Assembly (NCBI GenBank): GCA_022484595.1
Contig: JAKVLB010000005.1
Location: 62,001 to 126,000, forward strand
Length of the DNA stretch: 64,000 nucleotides
Source: Mageeibacillus sp.
GTDB lineage: Bacteria > Bacillota > Clostridia > Saccharofermentanales > Saccharofermentanaceae
Reading direction: 5' to 3'
Below, piece after piece: positions 15,535-41,841 of this stretch. A program made the position numbers and the translations under genes. The notes under the pieces were generated by a model. It worked only from the letters and a program-made list of their open reading frames with translations. It did no database searches and was not told where the DNA came from. Numbering within the stretch: the first letter of the stretch is position 1; the number at the start of each line of letters is the position of its first letter.

Positions 15535-15622
15535 GTCAATCGATAGAGGCTATACTGATTGAACCTATGAGGACTTGGGACAAGACCCGGTCTTTTACTA
15601 TCTAAAGAAGGGAAAACCTAAA

Positions 15623-17455: not shown

Positions 17456-19185
17456 ACGTAACAATTGACGGAATTACAGTATCCGTACCAGAGAAGACAA
17501 CCATTCTTGCTGCTGCTGTCAAAGCGGGCGTGAAGATTCCTACGCTTTGCTACTGGAAAGATCTCAATGAGATCGGCGCCTGCCGTGTCTGCGTTGTAGA
17601 GGTAGAGGGCTTCGACAGACTTCTTACCGCATGCAACAACGCGGTTGAAGAGGGTATGGTCATCCATACAAACAGCAAGAAGGCAAGAACAGCCCGCAAG
17701 ACAAATGTCGAGCTTATTCTTTCACAGCATAATGATGAGTGCACAACCTGCGTAAGATCAGGAAACTGCTCACTCCAGACTTTGTCAAATGATCTGTCTG
17801 TAAGAGATGTTCCTTTCGAAAAAGAACTCCCCAAGCAGAAGGGCAATCCTGATTTCCCGCTTATCAGAGACTATACAAAGTGCATCAAGTGCATGCGTTG
17901 CGTTCAGGTCTGCGACAAGATTCAGCATTCCAACGTATGGGATGTAATCAATACGGGCGGACAGACAACAGTAGATGTTGCCAATGTTTACAGCCTTGAG
18001 GATTCACAGTGCGCTCTTTGCGGACAGTGCATCACACACTGCCCCGTAGGTGCCCTGCACGAGAGAGATGACAGTGAGAAGGTTCTTGATGCAATTGACG
18101 ATCCTGAGAAGATTGTCGTAGTTCAGATCGCGCCTTCCATCAGAACGGCATGGGGCGAGACCTTCGGAATGGATGCAAAGGAAGCAACTGTAGAAAGACT
18201 CGCTGCCTGCCTTAAGCAGATCGGCGCGGATTATGTTTTCGACACCAACTTCTCTGCAGATCTTACTATCGTCGAGGAAGCAAATGAATTCCTCGAGAAG
18301 CTTACACACGCCGATAAGAACAAGTTCCCGATGTTCACTTCCTGCTGCCCGGGCTGGGTGAGATTTATCAAGGCTCACTATCCTGAGTTTGTAGATCAGG
18401 TGTCCACATCAAAGTCACCTCAACAGATGTTCGGTGCGGTGGTCAAGAGCTACTATGCGGAAATTCTCGGAGTAGATCCTTCAAAGCTTTACAGTGTATC
18501 AATCATGCCTTGCCTCGCGAAGAAGCACGAGTGTGCGATTCCGGCAATGAACGATGCCTGCGGTGATCCTGATGTTGATGTTGTACTTACGACAAGAGAA
18601 GTCGACAGACTCATAAAGATTGCGCAGATCAACCCGAAGAAGGTCAGTGATATCGAGCTTGACAAGCCTCTCGGCATCGGTTCAGGCGCAGGTAATATTT
18701 TCGGTGCTACAGGCGGCGTTATGGAAGCGGCTTTGCGTTCCGCTTACTTCTATGTAACCGGCAACAAGCCGGATCCCGACAAGACATTCACTGCGGTTCG
18801 CGGTATGGATGGCTGGAAGGAAGCCGAGTACGACATTAACGGCATAAAGCTTAAAGTTGCTGTCGTAAACGGTCTCGGAAATGCCGACAAGCTTTTGCAG
18901 GCTTTGAAGAGAGGCGAGGTTGATTATCAGTTCGTTGAAGTTATGGCCTGCCCGGGCGGCTGCGTAGGCGGCGGCGGACAACCGATTCACGACGGATTCA
19001 GCCTTAAGCAGGAGAGAGCCGATGTTCTCTACAATCAGGATAAGAACATGACCCTGAGATTCTCTCATGAGAATCCGGCTATCAAGGACATCTATTCCAA
19101 GTACCTTGACAAGCCGCTTTCTGAGAAGGCAGAGCATCTGCTCCATACAAACCAGCATGCGTGGAAGATGCCCGGTGAGGAGTAA
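17449..19185 (+). CDS. hydA: [FeFe]-hydrogenase, catalytic subunit (CpI-like)
   Basis: A 578-residue modular enzyme reducing protons with electrons from ferredoxin or the partner flavoprotein. Domains in order: [2Fe-2S] (Cys34, 45, 48, 62), His-Cys [4Fe-4S] (His94, Cys98, 101, 107), two [4Fe-4S] clusters (Cys145-155 and 188-198), then the H-cluster domain with L1 TSCCPGW (Cys299 proton relay, Cys300 ligand), L2 MPCLAKKHE (Cys355) and L3 MACPGGC (Cys501, Cys505). All ligands needed for an active H-cluster are there, so maturation of a [2Fe] subcluster is required. ATG overlaps the previous stop (ATGGTAA). Confidence 0.97.
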   Translation: MVNVTIDGITVSVPEKTTILAAAVKAGVKIPTLCYWKDLNEIGACRVCVVEVEGFDRLLTACNNAVEEGMVIHTNSKKARTARKTNVELILSQHNDECTTCVRSGNCSLQTLSNDLSVRDVPFEKELPKQKGNPDFPLIRDYTKCIKCMRCVQVCDKIQHSNVWDVINTGGQTTVDVANVYSLEDSQCALCGQCITHCPVGALHERDDSEKVLDAIDDPEKIVVVQIAPSIRTAWGETFGMDAKEATVERLAACLKQIGADYVFDTNFSADLTIVEEANEFLEKLTHADKNKFPMFTSCCPGWVRFIKAHYPEFVDQVSTSKSPQQMFGAVVKSYYAEILGVDPSKLYSVSIMPCLAKKHECAIPAMNDACGDPDVDVVLTTREVDRLIKIAQINPKKVSDIELDKPLGIGSGAGNIFGATGGVMEAALRSAYFYVTGNKPDPDKTFTAVRGMDGWKEAEYDINGIKLKVAVVNGLGNADKLLQALKRGEVDYQFVEVMACPGGCVGGGGQPIHDGFSLKQERADVLYNQDKNMTLRFSHENPAIKDIYSKYLDKPLSEKAEHLLHTNQHAWKMPGEE

Positions 19186-19379: not shown

Positions 19380-19398
19380 TGACATAGTAGCTATGTCA
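19380..19398. promoter_or_regulatory. Palindromic operator upstream of the nifH-like promoter
   Basis: Perfect 8-3-8 dyad TGACATAG-TAG-CTATGTCA ending 2 nt before the -35 hexamer, the place where a dimeric activator would touch RNA polymerase. The cognate regulator is unknown. The site is absent before the second leader-bearing promoter at 24852. Confidence 0.7.
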
Positions 19399-19400
19399 GA

Positions 19401-19429
19401 TTGACTTACACTGTTAAGGTCGGTAGAAT
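19401..19429 (+). promoter_or_regulatory. Sigma-A promoter of the nifH-like/hypF operon
   Basis: TTGACT (19401-19406), 17-nt spacer, TAGAAT (19424-19429). A start near 19436 would place the conserved leader at the very 5' end of the RNA. Confidence 0.8.
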
Positions 19430-19436
19430 AAAGGAA

Positions 19437-19549
19437 ATAAATCAGACTCTGACGGCAAGGATAATTCCAAGCGGAAATAGTCTCATATTAATCAGTTAAT
19501 TGATGATGTGCAGGCTCCTTATCCGCAGGTTGGATCAAGGAGCATTTTT
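19437..19549 (+). promoter_or_regulatory. Candidate riboswitch leader, copy 1 (translational type)
   Basis: The first 24 nt (ATAAATCAGACTCTGACGGC then AAGG) are identical to the leader before hypC. Conserved pairings: AGACU (19444-19448) with AGUCU closing a domain that contains GGA-UAAU-UCC and a conserved CGGAA, then an A/U-rich hairpin. The last hairpin pairs GCTCCTTATCC (19514-19524) with GGAT-C-AAGGAGC (19532-19543), so the ribosome site AAGGAG (19537-19542) is buried 7 nt before the ATG. It matches no riboswitch class I can recall. Confidence 0.72.
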
Positions 19550-20305
19550 ATGTTAAAGATTGCAATTTACGGCAAAGGCGGAATAGGCAAATCGACGGTT
19601 ACAGCAAATCTGTCGGCGGCATTCGCGAGACTCGGGAAGAAAGTCATACAGATAGGCTGCGATCCTAAGGCTGACTCCACAATCAACCTTCTGGGCGGCG
19701 AAGCGGTCAAGCCGGTAATTGAAATACTTCGCGAAGGCAAGACTGCCGGAAGAATTGAAGATATATCTGCCACCGGGTTCGGCGGAGTATTATGCATAGA
19801 GACCGGCGGACCTACTCCAGGCCTCGGCTGTGCAGGACGGGGAATAATCGCCACGTTCAATCTGCTGGACGAACTGGAATTATTCGAGAAGATAAAGCCT
19901 GACGTTGTTATGTATGATGTCCTGGGCGATGTCGTGTGCGGCGGATTCGCGGCACCGATCAGGGAGGGATATGCCAGGAAGGTGCTTATTGTCACATCAG
20001 GCGAGAAGATGGCGCTTTATGCAGCCAACAATATCTGTCAGGCAGTGAAGAATTTCGAGGATCGGAGCTACGCTACTGTCGGAGGAATTGTACTCAACCA
20101 TAGAAATGTCGAGAATGAACTGTCGCGGGTCGAGATGTTTGCGAAGGATCACGGACTTGAGATCGTCGCTCAGATTCCGAGAAGCGATGATATTACCAGG
20201 TGTGAGGATGCAGGCAAAACCTGTGTTGAGGGCGCGCCTCAGAGCGAGGCCGCGCAGGAGTTTATGAGGCTTGCAGAAAGACTTATAGGGGAAGGTGACG
20301 AATGA
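19550..20305 (+). CDS. NifH-like nitrogenase-type reductase (Fe protein homologue)
   Basis: A 251-residue ATPase of the NifH/BchL/CfbC family that delivers low-potential electrons to a NifDK-type partner during ATP hydrolysis. Visible: P-loop GKGGIGKST (8-16), switch residues CDPKADST, the [4Fe-4S] ligands Cys94 (GLGCAGRG) and Cys130 (DVVCGGFA), and a MALYAAN segment shared by Fe proteins. It is shorter than NifH of dinitrogenase systems (about 275-295). The ATG at 19550 follows AAGGAG inside the regulatory hairpin. It overlaps the next gene by ATGA. ParA/MinD membership is excluded by the two cysteines. Confidence 0.93.
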   Translation: MLKIAIYGKGGIGKSTVTANLSAAFARLGKKVIQIGCDPKADSTINLLGGEAVKPVIEILREGKTAGRIEDISATGFGGVLCIETGGPTPGLGCAGRGIIATFNLLDELELFEKIKPDVVMYDVLGDVVCGGFAAPIREGYARKVLIVTSGEKMALYAANNICQAVKNFEDRSYATVGGIVLNHRNVENELSRVEMFAKDHGLEIVAQIPRSDDITRCEDAGKTCVEGAPQSEAAQEFMRLAERLIGEGDE

Positions 20306-21633
20306 ACAGAGCAGTATCATACACGGCAGGTGAGCTGGCCGTCAGCGGAAGAGATAACATTCCTTCCGAACTGTTGTCAGGAGCCGGACTTGTATACAGT
20401 TCGCCGGCAACTCTCGCGTATAACTCACCGGGCGCGGAAGGCTACGGGGTAAAGCGTGCGGCACTTTCTGTCCCTGAGTCGGTGATGCTGATAGTCGCAC
20501 CCGGGTGCTGCGGCCGCAATACGTCGCTTGTGTCAAACATGCCCGGATACAGAAACAGGTTCTTCTATCTGCTCATGGACGAGACTGATCTTGTTACCGG
20601 AAGGCATCTTACAAAGGTTCCAGAAGCGGTCAGCGAAGTAGTGTCTTTCCTGGACGGACTCGAAGGCACCGGCGTCCCCAAGGCCGTTATGATATGCATA
20701 ACATGTGTGGACGCTCTTCTGGGTACGGATATGGAGCGTGTCGCGCGCAGCTGCGAGACAGCGTTAAGAGAAGCCGGATACAAAGATACGCGCGTTAAGC
20801 CGTGCTATATGTATGCGCTCACCCGCGAGGGCAACCGCCCGCCGATGGTTCATGTCAGACAGACAATATATTCTCTTCTTCCCGAGTGCAGAAAGGACCC
20901 TCAGGCGGTTAATATTCTGGGCTCATTCGCGCCGACAAGATCAGATGACTTAGTCAGTATTCTCAACAGTGCCGGCTACAAAACCATCAGACAGCTTGGT
21001 GACATAACAGCCTATGACGAGTTCATGAAGATGGGTGAAGCGTCGCTTAACATTGTTACAAACCCCGAAGCACGCGCCGCTGCCGAGGACCTGAGAGTCA
21101 GGCTTAATATACCTTATGTGGAGCTGACAAGGGTATACGATGCCGAAAAGATTGACCGTCAGTATCGTTCGCTGATCAAGGCACTGGGGGCCGGTGATAT
21201 AAATTCTGCCGAAGAACAGAGAGACCGTGCGAGGTCGGCGGCTGAGAAACTCAGACAGCAGTTTCCTGAGACTGTTTTCGCCGTCGGGAGCTGCTGCAAT
21301 GCTGATGCGCTCGAGCTGTCGCTGTCGCTTGTGAGAATGGGTTTTAAGGTGTCTGAAATCTATACAGCCATTGATCCGGCGCAGTTCGTATATGTGAGAA
21401 AACTCGCGGAACTATCCGGGAATACAAGAATCTACTGCAATATGGAACCGACGATGATCAACTATGATGTGTCCGCAAGCTGCGCACATGTTTCCGTCGG
21501 AAAAGATGCGGGATACTACAATCCCGGTATTGCCGGAGTCTCGTGGAACTCCGATGTTCAGCCGTTCGGATATCAGGGATTGGCGGATCTGCTCACGCAG
21601 GTATATGACAGACTAAGGGAGGAACACCGATGA
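20302..21633 (+). CDS. NifD/NifE-like nitrogenase-type oxidoreductase, subunit 1a
   Basis: A 443-residue member of the nitrogenase component 1 superfamily, far from true NifD. Cluster-ligand candidates sit where the P-cluster or 4Fe-4S cysteines lie in relatives: Cys69/Cys70 (APGCCGRN) and Cys132/Cys135 (CITCVDALLGTDM, compare CxxGLIGDD in NifD/E). The stretch DETDLVTG corresponds to the RDIVFGG motif. FeMo-cofactor ligands cannot be recognised, so N2 reduction is not implied. It is coupled by ATGA overlaps to the nifH-like gene before and the partner subunit after, and leads into hypF. The substrate is unknown; assembly or reduction of an iron cofactor is the working idea. Confidence 0.85.
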   Translation: MNRAVSYTAGELAVSGRDNIPSELLSGAGLVYSSPATLAYNSPGAEGYGVKRAALSVPESVMLIVAPGCCGRNTSLVSNMPGYRNRFFYLLMDETDLVTGRHLTKVPEAVSEVVSFLDGLEGTGVPKAVMICITCVDALLGTDMERVARSCETALREAGYKDTRVKPCYMYALTREGNRPPMVHVRQTIYSLLPECRKDPQAVNILGSFAPTRSDDLVSILNSAGYKTIRQLGDITAYDEFMKMGEASLNIVTNPEARAAAEDLRVRLNIPYVELTRVYDAEKIDRQYRSLIKALGAGDINSAEEQRDRARSAAEKLRQQFPETVFAVGSCCNADALELSLSLVRMGFKVSEIYTAIDPAQFVYVRKLAELSGNTRIYCNMEPTMINYDVSASCAHVSVGKDAGYYNPGIAGVSWNSDVQPFGYQGLADLLTQVYDRLREEHR

Positions 21634-22559
21634 AAGGTTTGCGCAAATGTCTGACACCGTTCGCTCCGGATCAGTCCGGCGCCGTCTCAGTGCTGTATGA
21701 GCTGGGAGGAATTATTGTCGTCGTTGACGCGGGCGGATGCACGGGAAATATTTGCGGCTTCGATGAGCCGCGCTGGCAGAATTCAAAAAGTGCGATTTTC
21801 TCCGCCGGGCTTCGCGACATGGATGCGATTCTCGGCAGAGACAGGCTTCTTGTATCGAAAATTGTTTCTGCGGCGGACAGAATCGAGGCCCGCTTTGTGG
21901 CGATTGTCGGAACACCTGTCCCGGCGACTATCGCCACAGATTACAAAGCGCTTAAGCGGATGCTCGAGAAACAGATCGATCTGCCTGTATTTACGATCGA
22001 GACAAACGGCATGCGTCTTTATGACGTCGGTGAGACTATGGCTTACAAGGCCCTGATTGAAGAATTCAGGGACAGGGAAAGGTCGTCCGGCAGGAATGAT
22101 TCAAAACTTATCCTGGGCGCAACGCCGCTGACATACGGCAACAGCTATTTGCCGATGACGATTGAAGACTATTACGGAATTGATTCAGGTATTGAAGCTG
22201 TTGCCGCTTCGACTTCGGGAATAGAAGCGTGCAAGGCATGCGGACTCAAGTACACAGTGGAGTGCAATATGGCGCATGAATACTGCGAAGAAGGCCGTCT
22301 CAGGGGAAGGGTTCTGGTTGTGCACGACGAAGCGTTCGGTCTGACGGTAAAGAACCGGTACAAAGGATATTGCGAGACTGCAAGTTTTTTCGCGCACGGA
22401 CAGAGAAGGCTTGATGAAGAAGACGACTTTACAAGGCTCGTCAGAGAAGGCGGTTTTGACACGATTGTCGCGGACAGCTGCCTTGCGCCGCTGGTGCCTT
22501 TCTATCACGGGGCATGGGTTGACGCACCTTGTTTCGCGATCAGCGGAAGACTTTTATGA
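21630..22559 (+). CDS. NifK/NifN-like nitrogenase-type partner subunit 1b
   Basis: A 309-residue, short nitrogenase component 1 homologue, likely partner of the preceding gene. Its N-terminus (SGAVSVLYELGG..VVDAGGC) has a Cys37 in the position of the first NifK/BchB-type cluster cysteine, with Cys42 near. A paralogous segment occurs in the gene at 28926 (SGFASALYELGG..SGC), as does the closing SGRL motif. It is far shorter than NifK (about 500), so the third Rossmann-like domain is reduced. ATGA overlaps join it to 1a and to hypF. Confidence 0.8.
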   Translation: MKGLRKCLTPFAPDQSGAVSVLYELGGIIVVVDAGGCTGNICGFDEPRWQNSKSAIFSAGLRDMDAILGRDRLLVSKIVSAADRIEARFVAIVGTPVPATIATDYKALKRMLEKQIDLPVFTIETNGMRLYDVGETMAYKALIEEFRDRERSSGRNDSKLILGATPLTYGNSYLPMTIEDYYGIDSGIEAVAASTSGIEACKACGLKYTVECNMAHEYCEEGRLRGRVLVVHDEAFGLTVKNRYKGYCETASFFAHGQRRLDEEDDFTRLVREGGFDTIVADSCLAPLVPFYHGAWVDAPCFAISGRLL

Positions 22560-24877
22560 TTACCAGAACTGTCAGAGTATATGGAATTGTCCAGGGCGTC
22601 GGATTCAGGCCGACGGTGGCAAGACACGCCTCGAGCGCGGGCGTGAACGGCAGCGTCTGCAACAGGGGACCTTATGTTGAGATAATTGCGCAGGGTGACG
22701 AGGCGGCGGTCAGTGAGTTTCTGCGACTTATAGCGGAACAGCCGCCGAGACGCGCCGCGATTCTCAAGATGGACGTCAAGGACAGCGATAGCTCGCATAT
22801 ATACGATTCCTTCGATATTGTCAGGAGCGCCAGAACGCAGGGCGAGATTTATGTGTCGCCTGATCTTGCCGTGTGCGATGATTGTCTGGCAGAGCTTCAC
22901 GACAGGAATAACAGACGTTATCAGCATCCGTTCATAAACTGCACCTGCTGCGGTCCGAGACTCACGATTCTGGACAGTCTGCCTTATGACCGCGAGAGGA
23001 CCTCGATGAAGGAATTCCCGATGTGCGACAGATGTGCGGAGGAATATCACAACCCTGACAGCCGGCGATACGATGCCCAGCCGGTCTGCTGCAATGACTG
23101 CGGTCCGGAGTACTTTATTCTTGACAATGAGGACATAAGGGGACTCAAGGCAATCACTATGGTGCGCCGGTTTCTGAGCGACGGCAAAATAGTTGCAATC
23201 AAGGGAATCGGCGGGTTCCATCTGGCATGCAGCGCCACTGATGCCAACGCGGTAGCGAGGCTCAGAGAGCTCAAGCACCGTCCGGCAAAGCCCTTTGCAG
23301 TGATGATGGATTCTTACGCGACGATTGAACGCAACTGCGAAATACTGCCTGTTCAGGAGGAGTATATCAGGGGACATCAGAAGCCGATAGTGCTGATGAG
23401 ACGCCTGAGTTCGTCCCTGCTCGCTGAGAATGTCGCGCCGGACAACCCTAATGTGGGAGTTATGCTGCCGTATGCGCCGGTGCAGAGCCTTATATTTGAT
23501 ATGGATGACGGCATTGATGTGCCGCGCTGTCTTGTAATGACGAGCGGCAATCTGTCGGGACTTCCGATATGCCGTGATGATGACGACGTCAGAAAAGAGA
23601 TACTTCAGTACACTGATATTGTGCTTACAAACAACCGTAAAATCCGGATGAGAGCCGATGATTCGGTTATGGATTTCTATAGCGGAAAGCCTTATATGAT
23701 AAGGCGTTCACGAGGTTTTGCCCCGCTTCCGTTCATACTGTCGCATGATTACGGAAAAGTCTGCGTTACAGCTTACGGCGGCGAACTCAAAAACACTTTC
23801 TGCACAACGTCAGGAAATCTGTTCTATCCGTCATCCTATATAGGCGACCTTACGGATCTAAAGGGTAAAGCGGTTCTTGCGGAGACTGTCGATAGAATGA
23901 ATACACTTCTTGAGGCAAAGCCGACTCATGCAGTCTGCGACCTGCATCCGAACTACAATTCTTCAATGGCAGCGGAGGAATCCGGTCTGCCGGTAATCCG
24001 TGTACAGCACCACTATGCGCACATTCTGTCGTGCATGGCCGAGAATGATTATTTCGGCGAATGCATCGGAATAGCTATGGACGGAACGGGATATGCACCT
24101 GACGGCAGCATATGGGGCGGTGAGATATTGAAGTGCAGCCCGGATGACTATGAACGGATAGGTTCGATACGGCCGTTTATACAGTTCGGAGGAGACGCGG
24201 CCTCGCGCGAAGGATACAAGATCGCAATATCGATGTTAATCGATATATACGGCGAAGAGGCTCAGACGGTAATTGACCGTGAAGGACTTCTTGTAAGCGG
24301 GAATTTCCGCCTGTATAAGACGATGCATGACAGGCGCATCAACTCTGTGGTGTCGACAAGCTGCGGAAGACTGTTCGACGCCGTGTCGGCAATACTGGGA
24401 CTTCGAAAAGAATCGAGCTTTGAGGGAGAGGCAGCCACAGCGCTTGAATTTTGCGCACTGGAATACGAGGAGTCTTTGAAATCGTACCCGGACTGCCGGA
24501 ACGACTTATTGTTTCCTGAACTTACGGATGGCGACATTATAGCGACTGACAGGATTGTGAGGTATATTACCGAAGGAGTTCTCTCGGGTGAGAGCTCAGG
24601 AAAACTGGCATATGAATTTCACATGATGCTTGCGCAGGGTGCAGGTAAGCTTGCCGCCTGCAAAGCAGGAGAAATCAAAACCGCGGCGCTCAGCGGAGGC
24701 TGTTTCCAGAACAGGCTGCTGCTGAGAATGACCGAGCGGGAGTTAAGGAGGGCGGGACTCAATGTCCTGACACACAGTCTTATTCCGCCGAACGACGGAG
24801 GTATTGCGATAGGACAGGCCCTGTACGGCTCAAATAAGCTTATGAAGGAAGTTGACGGAGACGGCAAAGGCGTATAG
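22556..24877 (+). CDS. hypF: Carbamoyltransferase HypF
   Basis: A 773-residue, full-length HypF that converts carbamoyl phosphate to carbamoyl-adenylate and transfers the carbamoyl group to the C-terminal cysteine of HypE, the first step to the cyanide ligands of [NiFe]-hydrogenases. Domains: acylphosphatase (GVGFRP), two zinc-finger units (CDDCLAEL..CTCCGPR and CDRCAEEY..CCNDCG), YrdC-like (KGIGGFHLAC), and a Kae1-like C-domain with HHYAHI, AMDGTGY and SGGCFQN. It begins in an ATGA overlap with the NifK-like gene. Its TAG stop overlaps the -10 of the downstream hypC promoter. Strikingly it is in an operon with nitrogenase-like genes. Confidence 0.96.
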   Translation: MITRTVRVYGIVQGVGFRPTVARHASSAGVNGSVCNRGPYVEIIAQGDEAAVSEFLRLIAEQPPRRAAILKMDVKDSDSSHIYDSFDIVRSARTQGEIYVSPDLAVCDDCLAELHDRNNRRYQHPFINCTCCGPRLTILDSLPYDRERTSMKEFPMCDRCAEEYHNPDSRRYDAQPVCCNDCGPEYFILDNEDIRGLKAITMVRRFLSDGKIVAIKGIGGFHLACSATDANAVARLRELKHRPAKPFAVMMDSYATIERNCEILPVQEEYIRGHQKPIVLMRRLSSSLLAENVAPDNPNVGVMLPYAPVQSLIFDMDDGIDVPRCLVMTSGNLSGLPICRDDDDVRKEILQYTDIVLTNNRKIRMRADDSVMDFYSGKPYMIRRSRGFAPLPFILSHDYGKVCVTAYGGELKNTFCTTSGNLFYPSSYIGDLTDLKGKAVLAETVDRMNTLLEAKPTHAVCDLHPNYNSSMAAEESGLPVIRVQHHYAHILSCMAENDYFGECIGIAMDGTGYAPDGSIWGGEILKCSPDDYERIGSIRPFIQFGGDAASREGYKIAISMLIDIYGEEAQTVIDREGLLVSGNFRLYKTMHDRRINSVVSTSCGRLFDAVSAILGLRKESSFEGEAATALEFCALEYEESLKSYPDCRNDLLFPELTDGDIIATDRIVRYITEGVLSGESSGKLAYEFHMMLAQGAGKLAACKAGEIKTAALSGGCFQNRLLLRMTERELRRAGLNVLTHSLIPPNDGGIAIGQALYGSNKLMKEVDGDGKGV

Positions 24878-24880
24878 AAT
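24852..24880 (+). promoter_or_regulatory. Sigma-A promoter of the hypCDE/hydFE operon, inside the end of hypF
   Basis: TTGACG (24852-24857), 17-nt spacer, TAGAAT (24875-24880). The -10 hexamer is the same as at the nifH-like promoter and includes the hypF stop codon. A start near 24887 coincides with the first base of the conserved leader. Confidence 0.78.
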
Positions 24881-24886
24881 TTAAGC

Positions 24887-25011
24887 ATAAATCAGACTCT
24901 GACGGCAAGGCAATTGAACCCGAACCGGAATAGTTTTTAATCGATAGTGATTACTAAGACTCTTCCTTTTCGCTGTGCCTGACAAAGCCCGATTGAGAAG
25001 AGTTTTTTTTT
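24887..25011 (+). promoter_or_regulatory. Candidate riboswitch leader, copy 2 (transcriptional type)
   Basis: It starts with the same 24 nt as the leader at 19437. The AGACU element can pair with AGUUU (G-U replacing G-C compared with copy 1), closing a domain that again has GG...CC and CGGAAUAG; an A/U hairpin (TAATC/GATTA) follows as in copy 1. The expression platform differs: an intrinsic terminator. AGACUCU occurs both at the 5' end and in the terminator 5' arm, so the terminator 3' arm could pair with either. Confidence 0.72.
24956..25011 (+). terminator. Conditional terminator before hypC
   Basis: Ten-pair stem AAGACTCTTC (24956-24965) / GAAGAGTTTT (24997-25006), one G-U pair, with nine T at 25003-25011. 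It stands between promoter and hypC, so it must be read through for the genes to be expressed. Confidence 0.8.
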
Positions 25012-25024
25012 GGAGGTGCGGCAT

Positions 25025-25237
25025 ATGTGTGTAGGTTTATCGGCGAAGGTTCTGAGTGTAAAAGACGGCGTGGCGCTGGTTGATTGTACGGGAGCGAAGC
25101 GCGAGGTATCAGCTGAGCTGCTTGACGATCTTGAACCCGGAGATTTTGTTATGGTTCATGCTGGATCCGCGATAGCGAAAATTACGGACAGCGACGAGAA
25201 TCAGGCGGCGAAGCTTGCAAAGGAGCATCTGGTATGA
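25025..25237 (+). CDS. hypC: Hydrogenase maturation chaperone HypC
   Basis: A 70-residue OB-fold-like protein with the required N-terminal cysteine just after Met (MCVGLS, usual MCxAxP). HypC binds HypD and carries the Fe(CN)2CO unit. The start is ATG 25025 behind GGAGG, immediately after the conditional terminator; the ATGA overlap with hypD fits their stoichiometric complex. In [NiFe] systems HypC also escorts the unit to the large subunit, but no such subunit is in the window, so the acceptor here is open. Confidence 0.92.
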   Translation: MCVGLSAKVLSVKDGVALVDCTGAKREVSAELLDDLEPGDFVMVHAGSAIAKITDSDENQAAKLAKEHLV

Positions 25238-26283
25238 GTGAGCTGACAGAGCGGACAAAGAAGTATCTTGAAGAGTATGACGGACCGGAAATCCGGATAA
25301 TGGAGGTGTGCGGAACACATACGCACGAGATATTCAGACAGGGCATCAGGCGGATACTGTCGCCGAAAATCAGTCTCATTTCCGGACCGGGATGCCCGGT
25401 GTGCGTCACTCCCGTCAAATATATCGATGAAGCTGTATATCTCGCGCTTGAATCAGGCTGCACTGTTACAACTTTCGGTGACCTTGTGAGAGTTCCCGGA
25501 AGCAGCATGAGTCTCGCCGGAGCAAGAGCCCGCGGCGCGCGTGTCAAGGTTGTATATTCACCGCAGGACAGCGAAAAGTATGCGTCAGAGCATCCCGACG
25601 AGCAGGTTGTTTTCCTGTCAGTCGGATTTGAGACAACTACGCCGTCAGATGTACTGGCGGTTAAGAACGCGATCAGAGACGGAATTTCCAATTTCTCAAT
25701 ACTTACTTCCAACAAAACGATGCCGGGAGCTTACGAAGCCATGCGCCGGAGCACGGACGCATTCCTGTATCCGGGACATGTTCACGCGATTATCGGGACC
25801 GGAATCTGCAGCGAGCTTGCCGCAGCAGGAACCAGCGGAGTTATTGCAGGTTTTACAGGCGATGAACTTCTGAGCGCGCTCGCTGTTACCGTAAGAAAAT
25901 TCAGCGAAGGAAAACCTTTCTGGGTGAATGCATATCCAAGAGTTGTGACCGACGAGGGTAGTCCCGCCGCAAGAGCACTTGTTGACAGATACATGCAGCC
26001 CTGTGATGCCGACTGGCGCGGAATCGGGGTTATTGAGCAGTCCGGAGTAGAGCTCAGAGACGAGTACTCGGATTACGATTCGAGACGCAAATATAACATT
26101 CCGGAATTTAAAACGGAATATAAGACGGCATGCAGATGCGGAGAAGTTCTTCAGGGCAAAATAACACCGGAGGACTGTCCGCTTTTCGGCAAGGCGTGCA
26201 ATCCGGAGCACCCTGTAGGCGCTTGTATGGTATCGGGCGAAGGCGCATGTTCAGCGTTTTATTTATATGGAGGCAAATTATGA
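25234..26283 (+). CDS. hypD: Hydrogenase maturation protein HypD
   Basis: A 349-residue [4Fe-4S] protein, the scaffold on which Fe(CN)2CO is built with HypC. All signatures are seen: CGTHTHE, GPGCPVCVTP, the ETTTP thioredoxin-like fold segment, and the C-terminal cysteine region CRCGEVLQG..CPLFGKAC..GACMVSGEGAC. It is joined by ATGA overlaps to hypC and hypE, so C, D and E are made together. It appears fully functional. Confidence 0.96.
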   Translation: MSELTERTKKYLEEYDGPEIRIMEVCGTHTHEIFRQGIRRILSPKISLISGPGCPVCVTPVKYIDEAVYLALESGCTVTTFGDLVRVPGSSMSLAGARARGARVKVVYSPQDSEKYASEHPDEQVVFLSVGFETTTPSDVLAVKNAIRDGISNFSILTSNKTMPGAYEAMRRSTDAFLYPGHVHAIIGTGICSELAAAGTSGVIAGFTGDELLSALAVTVRKFSEGKPFWVNAYPRVVTDEGSPAARALVDRYMQPCDADWRGIGVIEQSGVELRDEYSDYDSRRKYNIPEFKTEYKTACRCGEVLQGKITPEDCPLFGKACNPEHPVGACMVSGEGACSAFYLYGGKL

Positions 26284-27284
26284 GTGATATGGTAACACTT
26301 GCACACGGCAGCGGCGGCAGCAAGACGAGCGAGCTGATTGAGAAGGTATTCAGAAAAAACCTCGGGAACAGGTATTTTACCTCGGATGATGCGGCGGTTC
26401 TTCCGAGACCTGAAGGCAGAATCGCAATGTCTACCGACGGCTTTATTGTATCGCCGTGCGTTTTTCCGGGCGGCAATATAGGCAAGCTCTCAGTGTGCGG
26501 TACCGTAAACGATCTGGCCTGCATGGGAGCCAGGCCGCTCTACCTGACATGCTCTTACGTTATTGAAGAGGGCTTTCCGATAGAAGAACTTGAGGTGATT
26601 GCGGAGAGTATGGGCAAGACCGCCAGGGAAGTCGGAGTAAATATAGTTGCGGGCGATACCAAGGTTGCCGGCAGGGGACAGGTCGACAAAATCTTCATCA
26701 CTACTGCCGGAGTCGGAGTGATTGCTGACGGTGTGTCGACATCCGGAAGTTTTGCAAGACCTGGCGATAAGATAATAGTAACGGGAGACATAGGAAGACA
26801 CGGTACGGCGATTCTTCTTGAACGCGACGACTTCGGCATCGATGCCGAGGTCACTTCAGACTGTGCGCCGCTATGGGTACCTGTCGAAGCCGTTTTGAAG
26901 GTATGTCCGGAGATGCATGTTATCCGTGATGCTACGAGAGGCGGAGTCGGAACTGTTCTCTATGAGATTGCCGGAGAAGCAGGCGTCGGGATTAATATTG
27001 ACCGCGCGGCGGTTCCGGTTGCGCCGGAAGTGGCGGGTGTCACGGGTCTTCTCGGACTCGAGCCGCTTTATCTCGCCTGCGAAGGCCGCATGGTAATGAT
27101 GTGTCCGGCAGAATATGCGGACGCAGTGACAGCGGCCCTGTCTTCATGCAGATATACAGAGGGCGCGACGATAATCGGTGAGGTAACTTCCGATAACATC
27201 GGAAAGGTTGTGATAACAACCGAGATCGGCGGTCAGACGTTCCTGCCAAAGCCCGGAAACGAGCTTCTTCCGAGAATATGCTGA
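26280..27284 (+). CDS. hypE: Hydrogenase maturation protein HypE
   Basis: A 334-residue PurM/AIR-synthase-like ATPase. It dehydrates the thiocarboxamide made by HypF into thiocyanate and passes CN to the HypCD iron. The N-terminal HGSGG motif, the SDDAA metal/ATP segment, and the C-terminal PRIC ending are all present; the final cysteine is the carbamoyl acceptor, so cyanide synthesis should work. The ATG at 26280 overlaps the hypD stop. An alternative family, ThiL/SelD, is ruled out by the PRIC end and the context. Confidence 0.96.
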   Translation: MSDMVTLAHGSGGSKTSELIEKVFRKNLGNRYFTSDDAAVLPRPEGRIAMSTDGFIVSPCVFPGGNIGKLSVCGTVNDLACMGARPLYLTCSYVIEEGFPIEELEVIAESMGKTAREVGVNIVAGDTKVAGRGQVDKIFITTAGVGVIADGVSTSGSFARPGDKIIVTGDIGRHGTAILLERDDFGIDAEVTSDCAPLWVPVEAVLKVCPEMHVIRDATRGGVGTVLYEIAGEAGVGINIDRAAVPVAPEVAGVTGLLGLEPLYLACEGRMVMMCPAEYADAVTAALSSCRYTEGATIIGEVTSDNIGKVVITTEIGGQTFLPKPGNELLPRIC

Positions 27285-27315
27285 CAGATTGACGGAAAGA
27301 GAGGTTGATTGAGCA

Positions 27316-27567
27316 ATGGAGACCAGAGTTGCGGTAATTACAATAATAGTCGAGAATCCAGAATCGGTGGCAAAAATCAACGAGCTGCTTCACGGCGTCG
27401 GTCAGTACATAATCGGCCGGATGGGACTTCCTTATCGCGAAAAGCATATAAGCATCATATCGATAGCTATCGATGCACCGCAGAATCTTACGAGTGAAGT
27501 GTCCGGAAGAATCGGACGGCTTGACGGCGTGTCCGTGAAGACCACATATTCAAATATTCAGGGATGA
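27316..27567 (+). CDS. Iron-only hydrogenase system regulator (TM1266 family)
   Basis: An 83-residue ferredoxin-like/ACT-type protein of the family known from Thermotoga TM1266, found next to [FeFe]-hydrogenase maturation genes (TIGR03959). It starts METRVAVITII and has GRMGLPY and SGRIGRLDGV. Its biochemical role is not established; a ligand-binding regulator is assumed. Its place between hypE and a NifD-like gene links the Hyp block to the [FeFe] rather than a [NiFe] enzyme. Confidence 0.85.
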   Translation: METRVAVITIIVENPESVAKINELLHGVGQYIIGRMGLPYREKHISIISIAIDAPQNLTSEVSGRIGRLDGVSVKTTYSNIQG

Positions 27568-27606
27568 CAATCATCCTGTGCAGAATCTAAAGCGGGAGGC
27601 AGCAAG

Positions 27607-28929
27607 GTGAATGACGTTCACGGCGCAGTACTGAGTCAGTCGGCAGCAGTAGCAGACTGCCGTTTTCCAAAACCATTTGACAATGGTCTTGAGTTCAACG
27701 CGCCGGTTCACGGAACGTGGAATATTGTTCACATAGGATATGAGATTCCCGGAGCTCACCAGATATATATCTGCGCCGACAACTGCATGAGGGGAGTCGT
27801 TATGACCGCGGCGGAGATGGGTGAACTCGCAAGGTTCTCCGGCGTTGTTCTCGAAGAGGATGACATGGTTTTCGCCGGCAGAATAGAACAGACAACCATT
27901 GAGGGAGTGAGTGACGTTCTCCGTTCGCTCGACAGCCTTCCTCCGGCAGCGATTATTTTCCCGGTGTGCGCACACAAATTCATGGGCTGCGATATGGAAT
28001 ATGTATACAGATGTCTTGAAGAGCGGTTCCCGAAGGTGAAGTTTGTGAGAGCCTTTATGGATCCCATAATGCAGAAGCGCGGAACCTCCCCGGACGTAAG
28101 ACTGCGACGCGCGATGCTCGACATAATTGATGAACAGCCCGTCAACCCCCTTGCCGTCAACGTTGCAGGCTGTGATGTTTCTATGGCAGAGGACAACGAT
28201 ATCAGGAAGCTGCTTGTTGATTCCGGATGTATCGTGCGCGAGATGTGCTGCTGCAGCAGCTTTGAAGATTACATGAACATGGGACAGGGCCGTTTGAACA
28301 TATGCTGCAATCCGGCGGGCGTTCCCGGCGTGAAAAATTTCAGCGGCAGATTCGGGCGGGATTATATTTGGCTGCCGTTTGTTTTTGATTACGGGAAGAC
28401 TCAGACAGGGCTTGAACTGCTTGCCGCAAAACTCGGGAAGAGCTTTGCAGAGGATAAAGAGGCCATGAAGAATGATGTTGAATCAGCGTTTGCCGCGGCA
28501 GAAAAAGTGATTATGGACACTGAGATTGCACTTGACTATACGGCAGTCGCGCGGCCGCTGTCTCTGGGCAGGTTCCTTATCGAACACAGGTTCAATCTTA
28601 CGAAGATTTATCTTGATGTTATTGATACCGACGAAGAGGAGGATTTCCGCTGGCTTCAGGCCAATGCGCCGGGACTTGTAATATCGTCAACGGTTGACAT
28701 CTCCGGAAGAGTGTTAAGACGCGACAACGCCGGCTGCCTCGCGATAGGTCAGAAAGCCGCATGGTTCGAAGGAACCGCTCATTTCGTAAATATTGTCGAA
28801 GGCGGCGGGCTTTACGGCTACAGCGGAATGATAAGGTTTGCCGGGCTTATGGAAGAAGCTTTGCTTGAAGAAAAAGATACGAGGGACATTGTTCCGAGAA
28901 AGGGATTGGGGTGCGCGAGCCTGATATGA
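27607..28929 (+). CDS. NifD/NifE-like nitrogenase-type oxidoreductase, subunit 2a
   Basis: A 440-residue nitrogenase component 1 homologue, paralogous to the gene at 20302. Candidate cluster cysteines: Cys56/Cys60 (ICADNC) and Cys121/Cys128 (PVCAHKFMGCDM, aligned with CITCVDALLGTDM of the first copy). EEDDMVFAG corresponds to the RDIVFGG motif of NifD/E. A second cysteine-rich stretch, MCCCSS, follows near residue 215. The GTG start at 27607 is backed by GGGAGG 7 nt upstream. It overlaps its partner by ATGA. A second pair beside the first recalls the DK plus EN arrangement, one acting and one as scaffold, but this is inference. Confidence 0.83.
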   Translation: MNDVHGAVLSQSAAVADCRFPKPFDNGLEFNAPVHGTWNIVHIGYEIPGAHQIYICADNCMRGVVMTAAEMGELARFSGVVLEEDDMVFAGRIEQTTIEGVSDVLRSLDSLPPAAIIFPVCAHKFMGCDMEYVYRCLEERFPKVKFVRAFMDPIMQKRGTSPDVRLRRAMLDIIDEQPVNPLAVNVAGCDVSMAEDNDIRKLLVDSGCIVREMCCCSSFEDYMNMGQGRLNICCNPAGVPGVKNFSGRFGRDYIWLPFVFDYGKTQTGLELLAAKLGKSFAEDKEAMKNDVESAFAAAEKVIMDTEIALDYTAVARPLSLGRFLIEHRFNLTKIYLDVIDTDEEEDFRWLQANAPGLVISSTVDISGRVLRRDNAGCLAIGQKAAWFEGTAHFVNIVEGGGLYGYSGMIRFAGLMEEALLEEKDTRDIVPRKGLGCASLI

Positions 28930-30014
28930 GAAAGTCTTACGTCAGAATTCCGGTTTACACAGGTGATGTCTCGGGCTTCGCGTCGGCTCTTTATGAGCTC
29001 GGCGGAATGCTTGTGATTCACGACCCTTCGGGCTGCAACTCGACCTACAATACGCACGATGAAGTCCGCTGGTATGATAAGGAGAGCCTGATATTTATAT
29101 CGGGACTTAATGATATTGACGCAATCACCGGAAATGACGACAAGCTTATCAACGATACCGTAAGTGCCGCGAAAAGACTTAATCCGCGCTTTATTGCGCT
29201 CGCCAACTCACCGATTCCGTATCTAAACGGAACCGATTTTGAGGGAATATGCCGCATTATTGAGAACAGAACCGGTCTGCCGTGCTTCTATGTGAAGACG
29301 AATGCGATGCACGATTACACTGTCGGAGCATCGGGTGCGTATCTCGCTTTTGCCAAAAAATTCTTAAAGGCAGGGCCGGATCCAGACCGCGGTAACATTG
29401 AGGCCAAAGCTTCCGGCGCAAACGGTAAACAATTGAAGCGTGTGAATATTATCGGAGTGACGCCTCTGGATTATACATCGACAACTATCGATGTGTCCGG
29501 AAGATACGATGTTATATCAAACTGGTCATACGGCACGGACTTTGACAGCATCATGCGCTCTCCTGAGGCAGATCTCAACATTGTTATGTCTTCGTGCGGT
29601 CTGGCCGTCGCGAAATATATGGAGAAGACATTCGGCATACCTTATCAGACGGGCAATTCATATCTTGAGCTGCCGCGCGGTAAGTCCCGCAATTATATAG
29701 TTGGCGAGCCGGTTACTTCCGGAATCATAGCCAGGAAAATCAAACTTGAGTACGGCATGGATTTTAATATTGTTGCGACTACGGAAATCACCGACGGGCT
29801 TTTGTCGGAGGTTGATGATGCATGTCACGGCGAGGACATGATAAAGGAGAAGATTGCCGATGGCGTCAGAATCATCGCAGATCCCCTGTATCGTGTTATC
29901 GCACCGCCCACGGCAGAATTCATTGAGCTCCCGCATTTTGCGCTGTCGGGACGACTGTATCTCAAACGCATACCCAATCTTTTTAATTTGGAGGAATATT
30001 ACCATGAGTCTTAA
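28926..30014 (+). CDS. NifK/NifN-like nitrogenase-type partner subunit 2b
   Basis: A 362-residue partner of the preceding gene and paralogue of the protein at 21630: shared SGF/SGA..LYELGG, a cysteine at residue 37 (PSGC), GVTPLDYT against GATPLTYG, and an SGRLYL end. The second N-terminal cysteine of copy 1 (Cys42) is replaced here by Asn or Tyr, so any bridging cluster would have different ligands. The stop lies inside the start of hydF (11-nt overlap), tying nitrogenase-like and H-cluster genes in one message. Confidence 0.8.
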   Translation: MRKSYVRIPVYTGDVSGFASALYELGGMLVIHDPSGCNSTYNTHDEVRWYDKESLIFISGLNDIDAITGNDDKLINDTVSAAKRLNPRFIALANSPIPYLNGTDFEGICRIIENRTGLPCFYVKTNAMHDYTVGASGAYLAFAKKFLKAGPDPDRGNIEAKASGANGKQLKRVNIIGVTPLDYTSTTIDVSGRYDVISNWSYGTDFDSIMRSPEADLNIVMSSCGLAVAKYMEKTFGIPYQTGNSYLELPRGKSRNYIVGEPVTSGIIARKIKLEYGMDFNIVATTEITDGLLSEVDDACHGEDMIKEKIADGVRIIADPLYRVIAPPTAEFIELPHFALSGRLYLKRIPNLFNLEEYYHES

Positions 30015-31212
30015 TGACACACCATCAGGAGAGAGAATTCATATCGGATTCTTCGGAAGGCGCAACGCCGGCAAATCAAGTCTTGTCAACCGCGTGACAG
30101 ACCAGGAGTTAGCGGTTGTATCAGATACAAAGGGTACGACGACCGACCCGGTCACCAAGGCAATGGAACTTCTTCCGCTGGGCCCCGTTGTGATTATCGA
30201 TACACCGGGCTTCGATGATGTCGGAGACCTCGGCGCGAAAAGAATTTCCAAAACCCGCCTTATCCTGAACAGAGTCGATGTAGCCGTGCTTGTCGTAGAT
30301 ATCACCGAAGGCATCGGCGATTGTGAGAAGCTGCTGATAAGTCTTTTCGACGAGAAGAAGATTCCGTACATCATAGCTTACAACAAGGCAGACCTGATGC
30401 AGAAAATCCCTTCAGTCAGGGATAACGAGATATATGTGAGCAGCATTACCGGAAGCAATATAAGCGAACTCAAGGAAATGATCGCGCGGTCCGGGTCCGT
30501 GAAGAAAGATGTCGCGCCGCTGATCTCGGATCTGATTGATCCGGGCGATACTGTGATACTTGTCATACCGATAGATTCATCGGCGCCGAAGGGAAGAATT
30601 ATCCTGCCGCAGCAGCAGGTGCTTCGTGAAATCCTTGATTGCAATGCAAAGGCAATGTGCGTCCAGCACACTGAACTTGACAGTGCGCTGTCGGGTCTGA
30701 AAGGCAAAGCGGCTCTTGTGGTTACAGACAGTCAGGTTTTCGGAAAAATCGCTCCGATTGTGCCGGCGGATGTCAGGCTTACATCTTTTTCGATACTGAT
30801 GGCCAGACACAAGGGGTTTCTGAGCACAGCTGTACGCGGAGCGGCGGCGCTGGACAGGCTCAAAGACGGTGACACGGTGCTGATCTCGGAAGGATGCACT
30901 CATCATCGTCAGTGTGAGGATATCGGAACGGTCAAGCTGCCGGCGTGGATAAGGCAGTATACGGGAAAACAGCTCCGTTTTGAGACGACTTCCGGTCTGT
31001 CATTCGCCGATGACCTGTCACGCTACAGCATGATTGTTCACTGCGGTGCATGTATGCTCAATGACCGTGAAGTGCTGTACCGTATGGCAAGCGCGGAGGA
31101 AATAGGAATACCGATGACAAATTACGGCACAGCCATAGCTCATATGCACGGGATACTCGCGCGAAGTCTTGAAGTGTTTCCCGGACTTTATGAGGAATTT
31201 GTAAATGGATAA
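30004..31212 (+). CDS. hydF: [FeFe]-hydrogenase maturation GTPase HydF
   Basis: A 402-residue scaffold that holds the [2Fe] precursor and delivers it to apo-HydA. The N-terminal GTPase has GRRNAGKSS, DTPG and NKAD; a dimerisation domain follows; the C-terminal cluster-binding domain has the CxHx(n)HCxxC ligands (GCTHHRQC and HCGAC). Start ATG 30004 follows TTGGAGG, located within the end of the NifK-like gene. hydE begins 8 nt before its stop. Confidence 0.96.
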   Translation: MSLNDTPSGERIHIGFFGRRNAGKSSLVNRVTDQELAVVSDTKGTTTDPVTKAMELLPLGPVVIIDTPGFDDVGDLGAKRISKTRLILNRVDVAVLVVDITEGIGDCEKLLISLFDEKKIPYIIAYNKADLMQKIPSVRDNEIYVSSITGSNISELKEMIARSGSVKKDVAPLISDLIDPGDTVILVIPIDSSAPKGRIILPQQQVLREILDCNAKAMCVQHTELDSALSGLKGKAALVVTDSQVFGKIAPIVPADVRLTSFSILMARHKGFLSTAVRGAAALDRLKDGDTVLISEGCTHHRQCEDIGTVKLPAWIRQYTGKQLRFETTSGLSFADDLSRYSMIVHCGACMLNDREVLYRMASAEEIGIPMTNYGTAIAHMHGILARSLEVFPGLYEEFVNG

Positions 31213-32248
31213 AAAGCAGCTTATTGCAAAACTCGACCGCGAAGGAATTCTTCCCGCCGATGATCTGGCACAGCTGCTCCGGGGTCTTGACAGTGAGGAG
31301 ACAGAGCTGCTTTCGGGCTGTGCCCGCAGGAAGGCCGTCTCTTTGTACGGCAAATCTGTTTATATAAGGGGAATAGTGGAATTTACCAACTACTGCCGCA
31401 ATGATTGCAGGTACTGCGGTATCAGGTGCTCCAACACCCGCGCGGACAGATACAGGCTCTCAAAGAATGAGATTCTGTCTGCCTGTGAGGGAGGCTACCG
31501 GTCCGGCTTCAGGACATTTGTACTGCAGGGCGGCGAAGATATGCACTACACCGATTCCGATATCTGCGAAATTGTAAAGGCCATCAAGGACAGGTGGCCG
31601 GAGTGTGCCGTGACGCTTTCCATCGGTGAGCGTTCCCGCTCCGGCTATGAGAGCTATTATGCCGCGGGCGCGGACAGATTCCTTCTTCGTCAGGAGACAT
31701 CTTCCCCGTCACACTACGCATATCTTCACCCGGAGACGATGTCTCTTGCCAACCGCAAGCGCTGTCTTGACGACCTTAAGGACATTGGTTATCAGACAGG
31801 GTGCGGAATAATGGTCGGTTCTCCGGGGCAGACCATAGAAAATATTGTGCAGGATCTGCTTTATATGAAGGACTTTGTGCCTCACATGATAGGGATAGGA
31901 CCTTTTATTCCTCATAAAGACACTCCGTTCGCGGATGAGCCTGCCGGAGATGCAGGCCTGTGTCTGAGGGTTCTGTCGATAACACGTCTTATGCTGCCAA
32001 AAGTTCTGCTTCCTTCCACTACCGCGCTGGGAACCGCTGTGTCTGACGGCAGGCTTCAGGGTATTCTCGCCGGAGCGAACGTCATAATGCCGAATATCAC
32101 TCCGCCGCGCGGACGCTGCAGGTATATTCTCTATGACGGGCAGATCGGAACTGAAGGAGATACGCAGGAGGATCTTAAGAGAATCGGAGATGACCTGAAG
32201 AGCATCGGTTATTTTGCCGACATGGGCAGGGGAGATTCGATAATGTGA
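31205..32248 (+). CDS. hydE: [FeFe]-hydrogenase maturase HydE (radical SAM)
   Basis: A 347-residue radical SAM enzyme with the CX3CX2C motif (Cys64, Cys68, Cys71; NYCRNDCRYCGIR), matching HydE rather than BioB or PylB. HydE acts on the Fe(CO)2CN-cysteine product of HydG and helps build the dithiolate-bridged diiron unit. Normally hydE, hydF and hydG occur together; hydG is not next to it or anywhere in the window. It overlaps hydF by 8 nt, and a MATE gene follows after 43 nt. Confidence 0.95.
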   Translation: MDKKQLIAKLDREGILPADDLAQLLRGLDSEETELLSGCARRKAVSLYGKSVYIRGIVEFTNYCRNDCRYCGIRCSNTRADRYRLSKNEILSACEGGYRSGFRTFVLQGGEDMHYTDSDICEIVKAIKDRWPECAVTLSIGERSRSGYESYYAAGADRFLLRQETSSPSHYAYLHPETMSLANRKRCLDDLKDIGYQTGCGIMVGSPGQTIENIVQDLLYMKDFVPHMIGIGPFIPHKDTPFADEPAGDAGLCLRVLSITRLMLPKVLLPSTTALGTAVSDGRLQGILAGANVIMPNITPPRGRCRYILYDGQIGTEGDTQEDLKRIGDDLKSIGYFADMGRGDSIM

Positions 32249-40114: not shown

Positions 40115-40127
40115 AGGAGGATTGCAT

Positions 40128-40802: not shown

Positions 40803-40804
40803 TT

Positions 40805-41839: not shown

Positions 41840-41841
41840 TT

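Follow-up and report, generated by a model that had tools for sequence, protein, structure and literature searches.

The window analysed here, the whole stretch of 64,000 nucleotides at positions 62,001 to 126,000 of contig JAKVLB010000005.1 of Mageeibacillus sp. (GCA_022484595.1; a 1.92-Mb draft genome in 12 contigs, 99.1% complete), contained an intact-looking [FeFe] hydrogenase gene (hydA) and, downstream of it, a run of plus-strand genes in the order nifH-like, D1, K1, hypF, hypC, hypD, hypE, TM1266, D2, K2, hydF, and hydE. D and K are our own names for the two nitrogenase component-1-like subunits of each pair. This run probably represents a front end of H-cluster biosynthesis that operates without the maturase HydG.

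The first gene of the run codes for a NifH-like ATP-dependent Fe protein (H1; 19550..20305; PF00142, 301 bits) with a P-loop and both cluster cysteines (GLGCAGRG and DVVCGGF). It is followed by D1 (20302..21633; PF00148, 98 bits; Cys69, Cys70, Cys132, and Cys135 invariant in 28 diverse sequences) and its partner subunit K1 (21630..22559; PF00148, 30 bits; Cys37 and Cys42 invariant in 22 sequences), both above the PF00148 cut-off of 28.6 bits. The Hyp genes comprise hypF, coding for a carbamoyltransferase (22556..24877; 736 bits; GVGFRP present), hypC (25025..25237; 56.5 bits), hypD (25234..26283; 360 bits; GPGCPVC and CGTH), and hypE (26280..27284; 404 bits; C-terminus PRIC). A gap of ~147 bases precedes hypC, the start of which lies at ~25025 (MCVG, thus with the N-terminal Met-Cys). 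A gene for a TM1266-family [FeFe]-hydrogenase system putative regulator (27316..27567; 106 bits) separates the Hyp genes from the second pair, D2 (27607..28929; PF00148, 37 bits; Cys60 and Cys121 invariant in 32 diverse sequences) and K2 (28911..30014; PF00148, 77 bits; Cys42 invariant in 27 sequences). The run ends with hydF, coding for the H-cluster maturation GTPase/scaffold (30004..31212; 539 bits, cut-off 325.6), and hydE, coding for a radical S-adenosylmethionine (SAM) maturase (31205..32248; 488 bits, cut-off 254.6). HypF, HypC, HypD, HypE, TM1266, HydF, and HydE each exceeded their own NCBIfam cut-off.

All of these genes had been listed, on one strand and in this order, by a first-pass annotation made from the letters of the window, and all were found as claimed. 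Four-base ATGA overlaps join nifH/D1, D1/K1, K1/hypF, hypC/hypD, and hypD/hypE, and hydF and hydE overlap by 8 bases. The ATGA-type overlap across gene classes that had been described was thus present between K1 and hypF, but K2 and hydF overlap by 11 bases and not through ATGA. Similarly, the nifH-like gene indeed lies downstream of hydA, but 364 bases separate the two, so that it does not follow directly, and the run starts at 19550 and not at 19380. The hydA gene itself (17449..19185, plus strand) was assigned to group A6 by family model (776 bits versus a cut-off of 765 for the group A6 NADH-dependent [FeFe] model) and carries the motifs TSCCP, MPC..K, and EVMAC. It overlaps by 7 bases with a gene for an NAD(P)H-binding flavoprotein with a NuoF-like Fe-S domain (15575..17455, plus strand), a likely, NADH-linked partner of HydA. 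Scanning the window against Rfam at gathering thresholds produced no match.

Absence of HydG, distribution of the cluster and a second layout

The CO, the CN, and the initial iron unit of the H-cluster are described as coming from HydG (PMC12752695). The key point, absent from the first-pass annotation, is that HydG is missing from the genome of the window: a profile search of the whole genome returned no HydG over the cut-off, and the two weaker matches (72.7 and 44.3 bits versus 312) were both HydE. The same model exceeded its cut-off in one of 14 control genomes, namely that of Thermotoga maritima. In addition, no [NiFe] large subunit (PF00374) was found in the genome of the window. Because HydG is missing, HydA, HydE, and HydF occur there without a described source of the CO/CN/iron synthon; because the [NiFe] large subunit is missing, HypCDEF occur without a [NiFe] client. 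Another contig of this genome (C4; L007, 11410-12492) carries a second, solitary hydE (528 bits) in the vicinity of methionine/cysteine genes, and most cluster-bearing relatives likewise have a hydE outside the cluster.

D1, HypD, HydG, HydF, and the [NiFe] large subunit were searched in 59 relatives, 35 of which belong to the genus of the window. D1 was retrieved in 15 of these 35 genomes and HypD in exactly those 15 (0/20 of the others); HydG was missing from every D1 carrier (0/15) and present in 12 of the 20 non-carriers (Fisher's test, 3e-10 for HypD and 2e-4 for HydG, uncorrected for relatedness). HydF was present in 14 of the 15 carriers and, among the non-carriers, only in the 12 HydG-positive genomes; none of the eight genomes with neither D1 nor HydG had HydF over the cut-off. 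The order nifH-D1-K1-hypF-C-D-E-tm1266-D2-K2 occurred in all 15 D1-bearing genomes, window included, counting two runs split over two contigs (G023 and G029) and one contig that ends inside K2 (G018). Outside this order, hydE-hydF without hydG was seen in G005 and G025, and tm1266-hydE-hydG-hydF in G001. A chance neighbourhood is ruled out by the recurring gene order, both in the genus and among the full-length loci described below. Maturation of a [NiFe] hydrogenase was likewise rejected, as the [NiFe] large subunit (PF00374) was found in 0/35 genomes of the genus.

A class-wide survey of 393 genomes, drawn evenly from the class and each at least 90% complete, contained HydF over the cut-off in 260 and HydG in 242. 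D1 scores were bimodal: the 12 genomes counted as D1 reached at least 512 bits, and a further 15, not counted, scored 58-208 bits; D2 was counted in 18 genomes (449 bits or more) and not in seven at 205-341 bits, a cut picked after the scores had been seen. All 12 D1 genomes lie among the 18 D2 genomes, and all 18 contain HydF and none HydG. Within the HydF-positive genomes, those with D2 had HydG in 0 and lacked it in 18 cases, and those without D2 had HydG in 235 and lacked it in seven cases (p ~2e-22, uncorrected), so that D2 was carried by 18 of the 25 HydF-positive, HydG-negative genomes. The 18 genomes span nine families, eight of which also contain HydG-positive genomes, and three genera (g1, g138, and g191) contain both kinds. 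This coexistence of D2-positive and HydG-positive genomes within families and genera makes the distribution look like repeated replacement and not like a single inherited event, as judged without a species tree. The first-pass annotation had considered that D/K-like genes occurring mostly without hydA or Hyp genes would refute its proposal. The opposite was found: with HydF as a proxy for the hydA system, D1 was accompanied by HydF in 12/12 and by HydG in 0/12 of its carriers in the class, next to the strict association with HypD in the genus.

To cover named organisms, 84,980 species genomes were scanned with the D1 alignment, giving 71 loci, of which 45 were full-length. Isolates with the locus included Eubacterium uniforme ATCC 35992, Pseudoramibacter alactolyticus ATCC 23263, P. 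porci, Sharpea azabuensis DSM 18934, S. porci, and Porcincola intestinalis, and metagenome-assembled genomes with the locus included some labelled Lachnospiraceae, Oscillospiraceae, and Coriobacteriaceae. The 45 full-length loci contained nifH, D1, and K1 (45 each), hypF, hypC, hypD, and hypE (44 each), tm1266 (35), D2 (43), K2 (40), hydF (29), hydE (7), and hydG (0). Indeed, hydG was inside none of the 71 loci, and genome-wide searches, covering 50 of the 71 genomes, found HydG over the cut-off in 0/50 and a [NiFe] large subunit in 8/50. As hydA adjoins the cluster in only three of the 71 loci, its adjacency was dropped as part of the conserved unit; the first and the third hydA motif were each kept in two of three copies counted, and one of the adjoining hydA genes (L076) has a deviating motif.

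That HydG is present but was missed, through an assembly gap or because it has diverged, is highly improbable. Many genomes are drafts and sub-cut-off radical SAM matches occur in most; however, gaps are an unlikely cause of 0/15, 0/50, and 0/18 (overlapping sets), because HydG turned up in 242 of the 393 class genomes with this very search. Moreover, the sub-cut-off matches that were checked proved to be HydE or ThiH. Matches of 167-181 bits to the HydG model were present in 11 of the 50 named-locus genomes, and the four matches of this kind (167-183 bits) that were scanned, three of these eleven and one of the genus (G015), were all ThiH (494-515 bits versus 168-182); they represent four of five stretches, L198 having been left out.

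Two layouts were distinguished among the 18 D2 genomes of the class. Type A (12/18) contains D1/K1, plus Hyp where loci were read. Type B (6/18; G168, G232, G299, G417, G424, and G483) contains nifH-D2-K2 together with a FecBCD-type importer in the locus, and no D1. In G299, the order is hydE-nifH-D2-K2-binding protein-permease-ATPase-hydF-tm1266; the G424 locus carries hydE and hydF, and the G168 locus hydE. The importer binding protein and permease were found in 6/6 type B loci and elsewhere among 116 loci only in L159 and L160, which come from HydG-positive genomes with the intermediate D/K family (205-341 bits); in no fetched locus with D1 and Hyp was the importer seen. In G424 and in the genomes of family f56, the importer ATPase is fused to a TM1266-like domain; in L144 (5358-6413) and L141 (2187-3296), such a domain forms the C-terminal part of an ABC importer ATPase encoded beside nitrogenase-like genes. 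Furthermore, a plasmid of Treponema saccharophilum carries NifHDK-like genes joined to an iron-complex importer (L161, 11235-17531), and a plasmid of Sporomusa termitida a more distant NifHDK-like set with an importer, a TonB siderophore receptor, and an alpha/beta hydrolase nearby (L162, 4966-13097). By their gene neighbours, these plasmid sets are candidates for ATP-driven siderophore or iron-chelate reductases.

The importers bring up the alternative that the nitrogenase-like complexes serve iron supply, freeing or reducing chelated iron at the expense of ATP, with the ligands coming from Hyp alone (type A) or from another source. The FecBCD-type importers adjoining near relatives (L159, L160, and the Treponema plasmid), the siderophore receptor and hydrolase on the Sporomusa plasmid, and the same importer type in six D2 loci are in line with this idea. 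Yet, iron supply alone would not make HydG dispensable, D2 and HydG are mutually exclusive (0/18), and the importer is absent from the fetched loci with D1 and Hyp, making this explanation unlikely. Since type B has an iron-complex ABC importer, no D1, and no Hyp near D2, uptake of an H-cluster precursor is conceivable for this layout. A speculative extension, which we regard as rather doubtful, is that at least two HydG-free routes to the H-cluster exist, type A using HypCDEF and D1/K1, and type B importing an iron complex, possibly an Fe-CN/CO complex released by neighbours, with D2/K2 remodelling organometallic iron for HydE/HydF in both.

Nitrogenase-like subunits and signature residues

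None of the nitrogenase-like proteins of the window reached an equivalog cut-off. NifH scored 309.7 bits versus 394 for the nifH model, 217 versus 345 for BchL, and 312 versus 402 for CfbC. The D and K proteins were far below the nifD and nifK cut-offs or gave no match; the best NCBIfam match of D1, K1, and K2 was NifE (26-45 bits versus 505), D2 had none, and no window protein matched BchN or BchB. Profile comparison with hhalign gave high probabilities for D1-NifD (92), D2-BchN (93), K2-NifK (89), and K2-BchB (97), and low ones for D2-NifD (44), K1-NifK (25), K1-BchB (7), and D1-BchN (0.3). In these alignments, Cys70 and Cys135 of D1 correspond to two NifD P-cluster cysteines, Cys60 and Cys121 of D2 to two BchN cluster cysteines, and Cys37 of K1 (at low probability) and Cys42 of K2 to one cluster cysteine of NifK. 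In the D1-NifD alignment (probability 92), D1 offered no counterpart of the FeMo-cofactor Cys and His ligands or of the first P-cluster cysteine of NifD; the D2-NifD alignment (probability 44) is too weak for this comparison. As several hhalign probabilities are low, the cluster ligands of the D/K pairs are only suggestive; a single [4Fe-4S] cluster may lie at the D/K interface, as in NifEN or the dark-operative protochlorophyllide oxidoreductase (DPOR). Nitrogen fixation was rejected as a function, given that no equivalog cut-off was reached, that D1 has no FeMo-cofactor ligands, and that no other nif gene occurs in the run.

AlphaFold models of D1 and D2 (mean predicted local distance difference test, pLDDT, 87.1 and 89.7, respectively) displayed a full component-1 fold, about equally near to NifN, BchB, nitrogenase, and methylthio-alkane reductase (Mar) chains, at 10-19% identity. 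The best structural Z-scores (24.5 for D1 and 23.2 for D2) were obtained with NifEN and nitrogenase chains; the comparison of these predicted structures cannot tell which nitrogenase-like branch is closest. In a quick tree, D1, D2, K1, and K2 formed groups of their own; the Nif and Bch references were on very long branches, so that the deep placement is unsure, and no Mar or CfbD sequences were included. Plasmid searches gave two records for D1, one for K2, and 262 for NifH, the latter being the source of the Rhizobium and Thalassococcus references.

The possibility that the D/K pairs are Mar-like sulfur-salvage enzymes that lie here by chance deserves mention, as the window has a cysK upstream of hydA and several relatives have one close to the cluster, and as nitrogenase superfamily IV-A genes have been found in or near sulfur-gene clusters (PMC10418091). 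Against it stand the tie to HydF and Hyp, the exclusion of HydG, and the structural scores, Mar being no closer than NifEN, DPOR, or nitrogenase (Z-scores with Mar of 22.0 versus 23.2 for D2 and 22.2 versus 24.5 for D1). This explanation is extremely improbable.

One-frame fusions of D1 with K1 occurred in 16 loci, of D2 with K2 in one (L101), and of NifH with D2 in one, indicating that each D is the partner of the K in its own pair and that D2 works with a NifH. The NifH-D2 fusion, a single 710-residue frame (L153, 7712-9841), is an unusual reductase-partner fusion in its own right. A second nifH lies directly before D2 in five loci (L089, L098, L116, L121, and L125), and those second copies that were placed in a FastTree quick tree group with the NifH of type B and separately from the first nifH. 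As the window has one nifH, its product must serve both pairs if both need NifH.

Signature residues were counted in near-complete copies, whereby some genomes enter twice because the sets L038-L053 and L058-L128 overlap. The NifH copies retained the P-loop in 105/106, the first cluster cysteine in 98/106, and the second in 106/106. The N-terminal Cys pattern of HypC (81/81), the C-terminal Cys of HypE (75/75), the GPGCPVC pattern of HypD (78/78; 76/78 for a second HypD pattern), and the zinc-finger pattern of HypF (74/74) were conserved, and HydF retained CxHH in 46/49 and HCxxC in 47/49 copies. In a midpoint-rooted quick tree, the cluster HypD were separated from the only three outside rows, HypD from genomes that have a [NiFe] large-subunit match. 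Neither hypA nor hypB was found among the genes from nifH to hydE of the run, the rest of the genome not having been searched for them.

Further downstream in the window (39653-44529), ctsR, a small gene without a Pfam match, a gene for an McsB-like guanidino kinase, and a clp ATPase gene form an ordinary stress operon.

Proposed HydG-independent front end of H-cluster biosynthesis

HypE and HypF make cyanide from carbamoyl phosphate, and HypC and HypD yield an Fe(CN)2CO unit. In the described H-cluster pathway, HydG makes Fe(CN)(CO)2(Cys) from tyrosine, HydE reduces and pairs this unit, and HydF finishes the subcluster, aided by the glycine cleavage system (PMC12752695). The exclusion of HydG and the co-occurrence with HydF support, at the level of genomes, the first-pass proposal that the diiron subcluster is reached by another route, on which nitrogenase-like complexes handle the iron-ligand synthon. 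It is very likely that the cluster replaces HydG as such. The more specific reading, in which HydG is replaced by Hyp-derived ligands and nitrogenase-like reduction, has a probability of roughly three in four (about 0.75).

From this combination of genes, we infer the following replacement of the job of HydG. HypF and HypE would make cyanide from carbamoyl phosphate, and HypC and HypD would assemble an iron unit bearing cyanide and CO. NifH would deliver electrons, with ATP hydrolysis, to both D1/K1 and D2/K2. D1/K1 may act on the Hyp-derived unit, for example by making or adding CO from CO2 or by swapping a cyanide for CO, and D2/K2 may act at the hand-over to HydE/HydF, for example by reducing the mononuclear iron. 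HydE and HydF would take over from there, finishing the diiron subcluster and inserting it just as they do in the known pathway. A NifH-type system suits such a step, because the conversion needs more CO, one cyanide less, or a reduction, and NifH offers ATP-driven low-potential electrons. D1/K1 is placed at the Hyp product because it accompanies Hyp in 44 of the 45 full-length loci, and D2/K2 at the hand-over because D2 always occurs with HydF in the class survey, also without Hyp nearby; this division of labour is presumptive.

The first-pass annotation had left a choice between the diiron subcluster and a new Fe-CN/CO cofactor. The former is favoured; a separate cofactor for another enzyme, with HydA being matured otherwise or inactive, is very unlikely. 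In favour of a separate cofactor, the chemistry of the cluster is itself deduced, and hydA adjoins it in 3/71 loci only, once with the deviating motif (L076). In contrast, hydF lies in the run in 29 of the 45 full-length loci, D1 and D2 occur in the class only with HydF (G033 being an exception in the genus), and HydA of the window retains its active-site motifs.

Several points weigh against the replacement of HydG by Hyp-derived ligands and nitrogenase-like reduction. All of its support consists of co-occurrence and sequence, the statistics take no account of relatedness, and some genomes are shared between the genus, class, and named-locus sets. The Hyp proteins give Fe(CN)2CO. As HydE takes Fe(CN)(CO)2(Cys) (PMC12752695), the reading has to postulate a further ligand step. 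The acylphosphatase pattern GVGFRP of HypF was kept in only 48 of 74 copies, five of the 26 others, which were displayed, having GVGMRP. One D1 carrier of the genus (G033, 89% complete) was without HydF over the cut-off, and the intermediate D/K family (205-341 bits with the D2 model) occurs with HydG in five of its seven genomes. As for type B, the locus of the three f56 genomes carries only tm1266, with hydE and hydF missing there and HydF encoded elsewhere. In addition, no Hyp genes were found in the fetched D2 loci of the six type B genomes, the rest of which was not searched for Hyp, so that Hyp may not be a constant part. Finally, seven of the 25 HydF-positive, HydG-negative class genomes had neither D1 nor D2, indicating that HydG can be missing for other reasons. 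The HydF neighbourhoods of six of them (L147-L152; G426 excluded) contained no candidate when the translations were viewed by eye, without a family search; these genomes may represent another HydG bypass, missed genes, or relics.

If true, the proposed route would constitute a second biological origin of the organometallic unit of the H-cluster, a new kind of job for nitrogenase-like enzymes, and a client of Hyp outside the [NiFe] hydrogenases. It would also correct genome predictions in which hydG is read as the mark of a working [FeFe] hydrogenase. Among the carriers are gut and rumen bacteria, of relevance to the hydrogen/methane balance, as well as culturable isolates.

Comparison with known systems

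With HydEFG maturation, the system has HydE, HydF, the TM1266 regulator and, presumably, the final product in common, but it is without HydG and contains a nine-gene nitrogenase-like/Hyp set instead. Some Clostridium acetogens, in which hydG was not identified by motif, have been described as well; HydE and HydF alone activate weakly (~1%), and the part of that report drawn on here names no nitrogenase-like genes (PMC9431212). With HypABCDEF of the [NiFe] hydrogenases, it has the signature residues of HypC, HypD, HypE, and HypF in common, apart from the varying HypF pattern; in contrast, the run of the window lacks hypA and hypB between nifH and hydE, and the genus lacks the [NiFe] large subunit (0/35).

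The working model, a NifH-driven component-1-like complex as an assembly machine, resembles NifEN/NifH in FeMo-cofactor assembly. However, D1, K1, and K2 of the window are far below the 505-bit cut-off, D2 has no match, and no other nif gene is present in the run. Similarly, BchLNB (DPOR), CfbCD, and MarHDK combine a NifH-like ATPase with a D/K-like pair for low-potential reductions on substrates other than N2, but they have other genomic partners, and the window proteins are under every equivalog cut-off tested. The nearest outside rows to D2 and K2 in the quick tree were the NifHDK-like sets beside FecBCD-type importers (Treponema saccharophilum, L159, and L160), which differ in having no adjoining hyd genes in the stretches seen.

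The first-pass annotation had known of no pathway joining nitrogenase-like, Hyp, and Hyd proteins, and indeed no description of this system was found in the open-access literature, most subscription papers being outside the reach of the search. Whereas the back end of the system (HydE, HydF, and HydA) is known, its front end fits no system known or found.

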